The notes below the pieces were generated by a model. The model searched no databases. It saw only the letters and a program-made list of their open reading frames with translations, and had not been told where the DNA came from. Below, one piece after another: positions 42,159 to 46,104 of a DNA stretch of 46,280 bases (position 1 is the first letter of the stretch; each line of letters starts with the position of its first letter). The position numbers and the translations under genes were made by a program. The stretch comes from Bacillota bacterium (GTDB taxonomy: Bacteria > Bacillota > Desulfitobacteriia > Desulfitobacteriales > JAJXUE01), in the NCBI GenBank assembly GCA_021783135.1, contig JAJXUE010000023.1, positions 1-46,280 of the forward strand. Reading direction: 5' to 3'.

Positions 42159-44057
42159 GTGAGTAATAGCTGGCCCGACTACTTGTTAGAAGATATACAG
42201 GCAAGAATTGATATTGTAGATGTAATATCGGATTATGTAGTTCTTACGAGAAAAGGCAAAAACTATCTTGGCTTGTGCCCTTTTCATAGCGAAAAAACGC
42301 CTAGTTTTACGGTGACGCCGGATAAACAAATGTTTTATTGTTTTGGCTGTCAGACCGGAGGCAATGCGTTTACCTTCCTACAGAAAAAAGAAAATATTAG
42401 TTTTGTCGAAGCGGTAAGGGTTTTAGCAACTAAAGCTGGGGTGCACCTGCCTGAAAAGGAATTGTCACCGGCAGAGAAGGCCTTGCATAAAGAAAGAGAG
42501 CTAGCGGAGCAAATTAATAAAGCTGCGCAAGAGTTCTTTCATTCAACTTTACTTACCAGCCCTAAGGCACAAGCAGCCAGGGATTATCTAAGCAACCGCG
42601 GTATTGCCCGCGATGCTATAGACGCTTTCCAGCTGGGTTTTGCCCTTGACGGGTGGTCTAATCTGGGCGATTTTCTGCTGGCTCGAGGTTATACTGTAGA
42701 ACAACTGGACAAGGTCGGGCTTGTTACGCCGAAGGATAATGTTCAATGTTATGACAGATTTCGTAACAGAATTATCTTTCCGATTTTTAACGTGCACGGT
42801 CATGTAATTGGCTTTGGCGGCAGAGTTTTGGATGACTCTCTGCCCAAATATCTCAATTCTCCCGAAACAGCGTATTTTAGTAAAGGACATAACCTTTACG
42901 GCATCAATCACGCCCATAAGGCGATGCGTGACAAAGGCGAAGCCTTGGTGGTTGAAGGTTATATGGATGTTATTGCTTGCCATAGCAACGGTTTCCCAAA
43001 TGCAGTGGCGTCATTAGGTACTGCGCTGACGCGGGAGCAGGGTAAGCTCATGATGCGTTATACCAGCAATGTATTGTTGGCATATGATGCCGATGCGGCC
43101 GGAATTAATGCAACTCACCGCGGCGCAGAGCTTTTACGCGACTTAGGGTGTAAAGTCAAAGTTCTTAGTGTGTCTGGCGGCAAAGATCCGGATGAATTTT
43201 TGCGCCACCACAAACCGGAGGATTTTGCGTCATTGGTGGAAAGCGCTCCCAGTTGGGTGCAATTTAAATTGGCCAGTTTAGTTAAGACTACACCATTAAG
43301 CGGCATCGATGCAAAGGTTAAAATTGTCAGTGAAATGGCTAATGATATTTTAAAAACAGAAAGTCTTGTGGAAAGAGAAGGATATATTCGTCTTATAGCG
43401 AATACTCTTGGAGTCACAGAACATGTTATATCTGCTGAAATTATGAGGATATCTGCAAAAAACCGAAAAAAGGGCTATTTTTCGGATAATTCTCACTCGG
43501 ATAGCCATACTAACATGGAACATTATCAGACTGAATTTGCCAATATTGGAAAAGAAAACACACTGGACGTTTTGCGGGTTAAGCCGGGAAGTTCGGTTAA
43601 CAAAATATATAGGGCAGAAAATTTGCTGCTGAGGCTGATGTTGCTTGATCCCAAAGTTATCGTTTTGGTCGCTGAGGAGCTACAATGGGAGTCTTTTACG
43701 GACACAATGCATGACCGGGTACTATGTTTAATCAAAGAGGCGTGGCAAAAAGGTAATTGGAACCCGCTCAACTGGGCAGCAGCTGTAAATGATGAAGCTT
43801 TAGGGAGTTACTTAGCCCAGATTAGCATGGAGGAAACAGGAATCGGTGATGTTTTAAAAGGAGCCGCGGACTGCATTCAAGTCATAAAAGGGCAGCAAAT
43901 TAAAGAGAAAATTAAAAGTTTGCAGGAAGAGGCACGTGTACTGCAGAACAGTGGGGATATGGAAAAAGCATTGGAGATTTTACTTGAAATTAATCGACTG
44001 GTTAAACAACCAGCGTCTGGGAAAAATAGATCGATAAAACCCTCAGGGAAGGGGTGA
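42159..44057 (+). CDS. dnaG: DNA primase
   Basis: DnaG makes RNA primers at the replication fork. The N-terminal zinc finger has CPFH ... CFGC (residues about 40, 43, 61, 64 from the chosen start). The TOPRIM core shows [10 protein letters not shown] and [10 protein letters not shown], and a C-terminal helicase-binding region follows. GTG 42159 gives 632 residues starting [13 protein letters not shown], like other clostridial primases; TTG 42117, ATG 42126 and GTG 42150 are in the same frame but poorly spaced. It overlaps the rpoD region closely and forms the macromolecular synthesis operon with it. Confidence 0.93.
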
Positions 44058-44062
44058 TAACC

Positions 44063-45166
44063 ATGAAAGAACTTGAAATCAAAAGTGAAGTTGCAGAACT
44101 GATCCAGCGCGGCAAAAAACGGGGATTGTTGACATACCATGAAGTTATGGACGCGCTGCAAGGTGTGGAACTTACCCCGGATCAGATTGATGAGGTTTAT
44201 GAGCACCTCGGTAGTATGGGGATTGATGTAGTGGCCGAGCATACAGGGATAGAAGAAATGCATAAACCGGCTGACGCTGAAGTCGACCCTGGTACCGAAG
44301 AGGAAATTGAAGTTGATTTATCAATCCCAGAGGGTATAGGTATCGATGACCCGGTTCGGATGTATTTAAAGGAAATCGGCAGGGTACCTTTGCTTAGCGC
44401 AGAAGAAGAAGTGGAACTGGCTAAGCGGATGGAAACCGGCGACGAACTGGCTAAACGTAGGTTGGCGGAGGCGAACTTGCGGTTGGTAGTGAGTATTGCC
44501 AAGCGGTATGTAGGTAGAGGGATGCTGTTTTTAGATTTAATCCAGGAAGGCAATTTGGGTCTGATTAAAGCAGTAGAAAAATTTGATTACCGCAAAGGGT
44601 ATAAATTCAGCACTTACGCTACTTGGTGGATTCGCCAGGCAATCACTCGGGCAATAGCCGACCAAGCCCGAACAATTAGAATTCCTGTGCATATGGTTGA
44701 GACTATTAATAAATTAATTCGGGTATCCCGTCAATTGCTGCAGGAACTTGGCAGAGAACCAATCCCTGAAGAAATAGCCAAGGAAATGGACATTCCGGAA
44801 GAACGGGTCAGGGAAATTATGAAAATTGCCCAAGAGCCAGTCTCCTTGGAAACTCCAATTGGTGAAGAGGAAGACAGCCATTTAGGCGATTTTATTGAGG
44901 ATGAAGATGCTCCGGCACCGGCTGAGGCTGCGTCGTTTATTTTGCTCAAGGAACAACTAGAAGAAGTTTTGGAGACTTTGACTCCACGTGAAGAGAAGGT
45001 GCTGCGTTTACGTTTTGGGCTGGATGACGGCCGCTCACGTACGCTAGAGGAAGTTGGGCAGGAATTCGGTGTTACCAGAGAACGTATTCGCCAAATTGAG
45101 GCCAAGGCGTTGCGTAAGCTACGCCACCCCAGTAGGAGCAAAAAACTAAAAGATTATCTTGATTAA
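44063..45166 (+). CDS. rpoD: Primary sigma factor RpoD (SigA)
   Basis: The housekeeping sigma factor, 367 residues from ATG 44063 (GGAAGGGG 8 nt upstream). Region 1.1 is short and acidic, as in SigA of Gram-positives. Region 1.2 has [16 protein letters not shown]. Region 2 has [36 protein letters not shown] and [18 protein letters not shown]. Region 4 has [15 protein letters not shown] and the [33 protein letters not shown]. All regions are complete. It starts 5 nt after the dnaG stop and ends at a terminator. Confidence 0.98.
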
Positions 45167-45343: not shown

Positions 45344-45426
45344 AAATGTTAACAGATAAATTTTTCTATTTGTTTCCGCTTGACCATCTGAGCATTTTGT
45401 TTTATAATCCTTTATGTAGTTGGCAT

Positions 45427-45501
45427 TCCTCGATAGCTCAATGGTGGAGCAACCGGCTGTTAACCGGTAGGTTGTAGGTTCGAGTCCTACTCGGGGAGCC
45501 A
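45427..45501 (+). tRNA. tRNA-Asn (GUU)
   Basis: A complete cloverleaf of 75 nt with encoded CCA. The acceptor TCCTCGA pairs with TCGGGGA (one G-U). The anticodon loop CTGTTAA gives GUU (Asn). T-arm carries GGTTCGAG. Confidence 0.96.
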
Positions 45502-45519: not shown

Positions 45520-45595
45520 GGGCCTATAGCTCAGTTGGTAGAGCACGCGGCTCATAACCGCTTGGTCCCAGGTTCGAGTCCTGGTGGGCCCACCA
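45520..45595 (+). tRNA. tRNA with CAU anticodon (elongator Met or Ile2)
   Basis: A complete 76-nt cloverleaf with encoded CCA. The acceptor GGGCCTA pairs with TGGGCCC. The anticodon loop CTCATAA gives CAU. The paired first base and the lack of three G-C pairs in the anticodon stem rule out the initiator. Elongator Met and lysidine-modified Ile2 cannot be told apart by anticodon alone. Confidence 0.93.
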
Positions 45596-45605
45596 ATTAT
45601 GTGAT

Positions 45606-45766
45606 GTTCGAGGTATAAGGTTCGAGGTTCGAGGTATAAGGTTCGAGGTTCGAGGTTTGAGGTTCGAAGTTTGAGGTTAGAGGTTCGAGGTTTGAGGTTT
45701 GAGGTTTGAGGTTCGAGGTTTGAGGTTCGAGGTTTGAGGTTCGAGGTTTGAGGTTCGAGGTTCGAA
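45606..45766 (+). repeat. Heptanucleotide tandem array, 23 units, between two tRNA genes
   Basis: Twenty-three seven-base units run without any insertion or deletion: GTTCGAG ten times, GTTTGAG eight times, GTTCGAA twice, GTATAAG twice and GTTAGAG once. The first three units are repeated as a 21-base block, and the later part alternates GTTCGAG and GTTTGAG as a 14-base unit. It begins 10 nt after the CCA of the CAU tRNA and ends 45 nt before tRNA-Val. The main unit is identical to the T-loop sequence of the flanking tRNAs. Confidence 0.97.
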
Positions 45767-45811
45767 TGGTAGAGTCCGTTTTGCGCTTGGTACGTTGAAT
45801 CTATATTATTT

Positions 45812-45887
45812 GGGCGATTAGCTCAGATGGGAGAGCGCTTCCTTCACACGGAAGAGGTCGGCGGTTCGATCCCGTCATCGCCCACCA
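45812..45887 (+). tRNA. tRNA-Val (CAC)
   Basis: A complete 76-nt cloverleaf with encoded CCA. The acceptor GGGCGAT pairs with ATCGCCC. The anticodon stem CTTCC/GGAAG closes the loop TTCACAC, giving CAC (Val). Confidence 0.95.
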
Positions 45888-45933: not shown

Positions 45934-45957
45934 GTGTATAGTAACGTGTATAGTAAC
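45934..45957 (+). repeat. Perfect 12-base tandem duplication
   Basis: GTGTATAGTAAC occurs twice head to tail. It lies between two terminators. TATAGT within each copy resembles a -10 box, so it might be a doubled promoter or operator element. Confidence 0.75.
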
Positions 45958-45980
45958 GGCAATTAGCGTTCCAGTGTTAG

Positions 45981-46010
45981 CACTTTTCCCTTTAGGGGAG
46001 GTGTTTTTTT
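45981..46010 (+). terminator. Terminator with long T tract
   Basis: CACTTTTCCC-TTTA-GGGGAGGTG forms a stem with G-U pairs and one bulge and is followed by TTTTTTT and then CTTTTT. No gene ends just upstream apart from tRNA-Val, which already has a terminator. Confidence 0.7.
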
Positions 46011-46104
46011 CTTTTTAAGAGTTCATTCATTTTGTCGGCGGCTCCTGTCTTTAGCCTGGGCATCACATCATTGATTACGAATAAGCCTTTTGGAGGTGAG
46101 TAGG

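Follow-up and report, generated by a model that had tools for sequence, protein, structure and literature searches.

A heptad array between two tRNA genes of a Bacillota bacterium as a probable member of a spacer repeat family

Tandem repeats of seven bases that lie between genes are an established class in bacteria. The described examples include GGGAATC of Xanthomonas and GGGGAYT of Nostoc, and a 2007 survey cited in the same source reports that heptamers are over-represented in bacteria; in the accessible part of that source no settled explanation is given, with an idea of polymerase contact advanced for the growth of these repeats (PMC4692102). Insertions in the 5S, 16S and 23S rRNA genes are known from Desulfitobacterium and relatives, according to the accessible part of a second paper (PMC7812874).

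We analysed a stretch of 46,280 nucleotides from a Bacillota bacterium (the window), in which a long heptad array occupies the spacer between tRNA-Met and tRNA-Val genes. This array probably represents local overgrowth of the 5' edge in a heptad-phased family of spacer repeats, not a product of the tRNA genes beside it. Positions, orientation, the heptads present in the same slot of relatives and the predicted fold form the basis of this reading.

The array in the tRNA-Met to tRNA-Val spacer

Counted by eye on the sequence, the array comprises 23 heptads with zero indels (Table 1), made up of GTTCGAG (10 units), GTTTGAG (8), GTATAAG (2), GTTCGAA (2) and GTTAGAG (1). TRF describes it at period 7 with 22.9 copies, 0% indels and a score of 208, and at period 21 with a score of 230; the runner-up array anywhere in the window scores 93. 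Both the sequence and TRF thereby agree with the earlier note, which had described an uninterrupted run of 23 units between two tRNA genes, and its proposal of stepwise growth is backed by the duplicated 21-mer and the 14-base alternation. With its head-to-tail seven-base unit and its intergenic site (TRF, sequence), the array is a heptameric intergenic tandem repeat. It is in TTCG phase on the + strand and starts 10 nt past the end of tRNA-Met, such that TTCG-phase heptads stand right behind the upstream gene, as in two-armed heptad spacers. At the other end, the last 42 nt of the spacer contain no in-phase CGAA and display a faint period 7 (lag-7 shuffle p 0.05).

Table 1. Features of the tRNA cluster and its surroundings, in window positions
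Feature	Position	Strand	Basis or remark
Sigma-70 factor gene (rpoD-like), upstream neighbour	44054..45166	+	Pfam, synteny
Promoter-like site before tRNA-Asn, TTGACC-17-TATAAT	45380..45408	+	consensus match only
tRNA-Asn (GTT), first in cluster	45427..45501	+	ARAGORN, Rfam
tRNA-Met (CAT), GGTTCGAG in T arm at 45571-45578	45520..45595	+	ARAGORN, Rfam, sequence
Met-Val spacer, 216 nt, RNA fold -74.1 kcal/mol, z -8.57	45596..45811	+	ARAGORN, folding
Heptad array, 23 units	45606..45766	+	sequence, TRF
Two identical 21-base blocks GTTCGAG-GTATAAG-GTTCGAG (45606-45626 = 45627-45647)	45606..45647	+	sequence
Four rounds of 14-base alternation GTTTGAG-GTTCGAG	45704..45759	+	sequence
Remaining spacer, begins TGGTAGAG	45767..45811	+	several relatives: inverted CGAANNN heptads at 3' edge
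tRNA-Val (CAC)	45812..45887	+	ARAGORN, Rfam
Terminator-like site past tRNA-Val	45979..46005	+	consensus match only

Within its own genome (2.71 Mb in 67 contigs, 96.7% complete), the window array is the only exact match to (GTTYGAG)x3. The same pattern read backwards, as a control, yields 0 matches in this genome and 0 in each of 82 class genomes.

The earlier note had also placed the array inside the primary tRNA transcript. By consensus matching, a promoter-like site precedes tRNA-Asn and a terminator-like site follows tRNA-Val, and no site of either kind is found within the spacer, so the array is probably transcribed together with the tRNAs.

The chance that the array is an assembly artefact appears negligible. 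Contigs of one Billgrantia genome begin in arrays of this type, which can therefore disturb assembly, but the window passes right through its array, the two flanks are unlike, the units are varied and the tRNA order is common with relatives.

Beyond tRNA-Val, a perfect 12-base direct repeat, GTGTATAGTAAC, is present at 45934-45958; comparable paired repeats past tRNA-Val are seen in two relatives (L206 and L209), and are perhaps traces of an integration site. Next to tRNA-Val, a short stretch of the minus strand at 45979-46072 is open, reading NDVMPRLKTGAADKMNELLKRKKHLP and then a stop. It looks like a C-terminal remnant of what we take to be a tyrosine integrase.

The same slot in relatives and the tRNA T arm

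The order sigma gene, tRNA-Asn, tRNA-Met and, in some cases, tRNA-Val is common within the taxonomic order. Sigma-Asn-Met loci were drawn from 30 of 70 matching genomes (73 searched); 29 were readable, and 18, the window's own included, have tRNA-Met and tRNA-Val adjacent. A period of 7 is present in the first 42 nt of 13 of these 18 Met-Val spacers (shuffle p ≤ 0.01, without correction), and 11 of the 13 carry at least two in-phase TTCG. The other two of the 13 (L205, L211) have no in-phase TTCG and contain CAGARGY-like heptads instead, three (L188, L189, L207) have a weak period 7 with p from 0.04 to 0.11, and two (L191, L196) give no period 7 signal in the first 42 nt. In a same-family genome (G001, locus L187), tRNA-Met is followed by five TTCG and tRNA-Val is preceded by five CGAA, in each case in phase. 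The 5' arms of relatives, whether of the same family or the same order, are shorter than the window array. Given the TTCG edge that relatives have after tRNA-Met, the window spacer thus exhibits the expected edge at a far greater length, together with a faint 3' edge.

In five relatives (L197, L199, L200, L202 and L212) a tRNA-Glu follows tRNA-Met in the cluster, and in another (L210) it follows tRNA-Asn, with the spacer masked. The window's spacer may be the site of a lost tRNA-Glu.

TTCGA is the customary core of the tRNA T loop. The earlier note had proposed that the array arose by slippage from a tRNA 3' half, its main unit being T-arm sequence, and that the repeated T-loop-like sequence in the RNA could attract enzymes that process or modify tRNA. 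As it stated, GGTTCGAG is indeed T-arm sequence of tRNA-Met, and is present in both upstream tRNAs. However, such a match is cheap, because GTTCGA occurs in 68 of the 92 distinct tRNA genes of the loci fetched from the order (GTTCGAG in 20 of the 92), and its presence in most of the tRNA genes examined cautions against seeing T-loop likeness in repeats. Beyond the common TTCGAG, the array reads GTT where tRNA-Met reads TCC, and comparison of the unit with tRNA-Met finds no T-stem or acceptor sequence in the repeat. When the spacer is compared among relatives, as the earlier note had advised, this one slot is filled with different heptads: TTCGTGG, TTCGATA or CAGARGY-like units.

The position of arrays relative to tRNA genes argues in the same direction. 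According to the earlier note, arrays common at many sites with no link to tRNA genes would point to a general repeat family, and across many phyla they are common at sites lacking tRNA. Although the window's own array and some of those in relatives do lie near tRNA genes, only 4 of 119 cross-phylum arrays, among those listed, fall within 500 nt of a tRNA predicted by ARAGORN (at 1, 75 and 122 nt, the fourth being an unknown-type call on the array itself), a count in which a neighbouring tRNA could be missed where an array sits at the edge of the fetched stretch. We rejected a T-loop origin on the grounds of position, flanking bases and relatives' heptads. The window array is probably not a copy of a tRNA loop, and slippage out of a T arm with RNA mimicry of T loops is very improbable.

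Place and strand of heptad arrays in the order and in other phyla

The motif TTCGNNNTTCGNNNTTCG occurs in 62 of 82 class genomes, often in tens of copies. Its maximum is 157 in one genome (G051), where the reversed control gives 3, and the window's own genome has 7 copies against 1 for the control; by eye, the reversed control equals or exceeds the TTCGNNNTTCGNNNTTCG count in 9 of the 62 genomes.

Array positions were tabulated for six genomes of the order. The set takes in every listed cluster of G001, G021, G031 and G061, 8 of the roughly 15 in G002 and, from the window's own genome, its four places outside the window. To count as an array, a stretch of four units had to match 14 or more of the 16 core bases; gene ends were those of a mechanical ORF caller, and the window array was left out of the resulting set of 98. 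Most of these arrays lie between co-directional genes (73), with 16 inside a called ORF, 7 between genes that are not co-directional and 2 at a contig edge. The two senses tend to occupy opposite ends of the spacer. CGAA-sense arrays are within 25 nt ahead of the next gene in 31 of 40 cases and within 25 nt of the previous gene in 4 of 40, and TTCG-sense arrays are within 25 nt behind the previous gene in 12 of 18 and ahead of the next in 1 of 18; the counts are not independent where arrays come from a single MAG or clade or from copies of an rRNA operon, and two near-identical rRNA operons of G031 enter them separately. A further 15 arrays are readable both ways; of these, 8 are close to the end of the previous gene, 5 to the start of the next and 2 to neither. 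The exceptions include 12 TTCG-sense or CGAA-sense arrays near neither gene end, the one TTCG array near the next start, and the four CGAA arrays at the end of the previous gene, two of which are also near the next start.

An unbiased 400 kb of G021, searched at a stricter threshold, contains 2 TTCG-heptad arrays, both CGAA-sense and located 8 and 17 nt before a start. Among eight control cores in the same 400 kb, TCTG gives 2, one core gives 1 and six give 0. TTCG heptads are therefore no commoner than TCTG in this segment; the family is sparse and its excess appears only genome-wide. Nor do the spacers of G021 have a general period 7, since the lag-7 match is 0.27 over 183 spacers, as at other lags. 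Array units and spacing are equal between a locus of G050 (L164) and one of Desulfosporosinus sp. I2 (L049), and genus g3 accordingly appears to take in Desulfosporosinus. In G001, a palindrome-rich GTCAAGGGGACAGTCCCC segment lies soon after a heptad arm (L303, about 2634-2700).

A looser scan of the window's own genome (RGTYYGAx3, up to two mismatches) locates five array places, namely the window and contigs C13, C19, C31 and C49. Four of the five are beside tRNA or 5S rRNA genes. C13 holds a second tRNA cluster, with both heptad orientations seen by eye between tRNA-Val and tRNA-Asp, and C19 and C31 each adjoin a 5S rRNA gene. The detected part of a CGAANNN run in C31 stops 19 nt before the 5S gene, with decayed units nearer to it by eye; at the corresponding place C19 has no CGAANNN heptads, and its own heptads lie 98 nt ahead of its 5S gene, at the contig end. 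The array of C49 is upstream of a protein gene and is TTCG-sense, 20 nt before a start, and thus is an exception to the rule.

Outside the order, at least 118 stretches with (GTTYGAG)x4 were found across named genomes, the hosts among the matches listed including Bacteroidota, Gammaproteobacteria, Polyangia, Desulfuromonadales, Chloroflexi, Cyanobacteria, Planctomycetota and others. Among those listed (116 arrays), where a sense-strand gene ends within 300 nt upstream of the array, that end is within 25 nt in 36 of 42, whereas the end of an opposite-strand gene downstream is within 25 nt in 9 of 47. The stop is often a TAA or TAG lying outside the repeat. Because GTTTGAG holds TGA and is able to create stops, arrays of GTTCGAG type provide the fair test: the GTTCGAG unit has no stop codon in any frame. 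For such arrays, among those listed, a stop lies within 25 nt in 17 of 21 sense cases versus 6 of 24 opposite ones (Fisher p 2.8e-4, a value that ignores shared ancestry, with ten of the 80 named loci coming from one Polyangia MAG). Under a slightly different definition of gene and array, 33 of 114 arrays, among those listed, are in called ORFs and 17 at edges, so the stop-codon rule covers the remaining arrays. A set of 14 further arrays agrees (5 of 7 sense versus 1 of 7 opposite), and of 28 other heptads in the same cross-phylum loci, 3 have a stop no more than 25 nt away.

The two-armed form also occurs outside the order. An in-phase CGAA arm lies within 220 nt downstream in 2 of 120 cross-phylum arrays, one of them from a Geobacter MAG (L121), and in 4 of the 14 further arrays, all four from the genome (G467) that also holds L076 of Geobacter argillaceus; upstream there were 0. 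The arrays themselves are patchy: (GTTYGAG)x3 occurs in 2 of 398 phylum genomes and 12 of 82 class genomes, own included in both counts, and GTTCGAGx5 occurs in 2 of the 61 genomes of the family of G466 (Billgrantia), G466 included. In G466 (locus L120), contigs C1 and C13 open with GTTCGAG units, and 155 overlapping x3 matches are present genome-wide, a burst in one lineage. Virus contigs contributed 6 stretches, and of the five not counted before, three are inside called ORFs.

Spacer folding, insertions and comparison with known systems

The RNA of the Met-Val spacer is predicted to form a long regular stem, with 0 of 200 shuffles as stable, and thus has the self-complementary stem of an RNA intervening sequence or processing stem (prediction, z -8.57). 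In the predicted fold, paired heptads match at six positions, G-U pairs included, and mismatch at one. The same spacer folds weakly as DNA (z -2.1, 6 of 200 shuffles), and the RNA of five relatives has z values from -1.9 to -5.5.

Own-partner pairing of arms, assessed over 30 mixed spacers, gave a p of 3.5e-4, which we put down to the mixing of kinds. Ten spacers judged to be without a clear arm pair were dropped: eight Met-Val spacers in which a heptad arm is missing or weak on one or both sides, the window's Met-Val spacer, and m_L307, which nearly duplicates m_L336. Own and swapped partners were then compared in the 20 clear two-armed spacers that remained (p 0.095), in the 18 without 23S (p 0.32) and in 9 Met-Val spacers (p 0.26). 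Partner-specific pairing was rejected because the preference is gone in the 20, and the case for a conserved functional hairpin is thus not made.

Arms also occur inside 23S rRNA. The 23S gene of G031 (Rfam; L324, 3119-6450) contains three inserts at sites that measure 12 to 15 nt in G061. Two of these (L324, 3397-3533 and 3821-3959), about 127 and 136 nt long versus 12 nt in G061, carry TTCG and CGAA arms at their ends or within about 10 nt of them, and no arms were detected in the third. A further TTCG array starts 9 nt past the end of this 23S gene, as the rule predicts.

These stems and inserts bear on two other readings. If the spacer were a selected RNA processing element, heptad stems would mark cleavage sites (e.g. 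for RNase III) between tRNAs, beside 5S genes and in 23S insertions, as the long predicted stem in the window, the z values of relatives and the arms at or near the boundaries of two 23S insertions might suggest. Of the 73 clusters outside the window's own genome, 13 are in tRNA or rRNA regions, 6 of these in three near-identical rRNA operons, but the other 60 are elsewhere; moreover, the arms lack partner specificity and 5 of 18 Met-Val spacers lack a 5'-edge period 7 at p ≤ 0.01. We therefore regard a processing element as doubtful. The two-armed spacers could instead be short DNA inserts, mobile or template-switched, that end in inverted heptads and resemble intervening sequences; the window array would then be a decayed and re-expanded copy. 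Filled and empty sites, as in the 23S genes of G031 and G061, are consistent with such inserts, as are CGAANNN heptads that precede 5S in one of the two own rRNA operons and are missing there in the other, and two-armed copies in Geobacter loci. Heptads are also found as single arms, however, and an origin by insertion is unlikely.

Growth at the edge of a spacer repeat family accommodates these observations as follows. Spacers between co-transcribed genes of the order can carry TTCGNNN heptads immediately behind the upstream gene, whether this ends in a stop codon or is a tRNA, and inverted CGAANNN heptads immediately ahead of the next gene, close to its ribosome binding site or to the start of the tRNA. 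TTYGA heptads may pair with themselves over six of seven bases when G-U pairs are allowed, and this self-pairing might promote stepwise change by 7, 14 and 21 bases through slippage and unequal exchange. Such growth would be tolerated in a spacer that folds back and would be removed during maturation of the flanking tRNAs. In this way the 5' edge in the window could have expanded to 23 units from the roughly five seen in relatives, with decay at the 3' edge.

A broader generalization is tentative. TTCG heptads may be general gene-end marks across bacterial phyla, starting at the gene 3' end on the transcribed strand, with inverted copies before the next gene in some lineages, such that seven-base stems bracket transcript joints, be they between mRNA cistrons, at tRNAs or inside 23S rRNA. 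If so, the growth of heptads would not be random slippage but would be coupled to the ends of transcripts, by way of ribosome release, RNA processing or R-loops. For the question of why heptamers are over-represented, a family with a preferred place and strand would offer a handle, as it could help to tell mutation at the ends of transcripts apart from selection on an RNA stem.

The heptameric repeat of the window is real and belongs to a general kind already known, and the place-and-strand rule to which it led merits a proper survey. Heptameric intergenic repeats are already recognized as a class; in the accessible parts of the literature on the unit, on heptads and on inserts in Desulfosporosinus and Desulfitobacterium, no account was found of the heptad family or of the place-and-strand rule. 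As far as the accessible part of PMC7812874 extends, the rRNA insertions of Desulfitobacterium are similar in being inserts of related bacteria that differ between operons of one genome, and heptad-phased arms, or like arms in tRNA and mRNA spacers, are not mentioned there. As described in the accessible part of PMC4692102, the heptamers of Xanthomonas and Nostoc are likewise intergenic seven-base repeats of variable length, with some inverted pairs. They differ in having another unit, of G-quadruplex type, whereas the TTCG heptads reported here tend to lie behind gene ends on the sense strand, and the inverted ones before the next gene. The TAACTGA direct repeats of Beggiatoaceae are also heptanucleotides tied to gene boundaries and patchy across phyla; according to the accessible part of that account they mostly precede start codons in the main genome, whereas GTTYGAG arrays mostly follow stop codons (PMC4679880).
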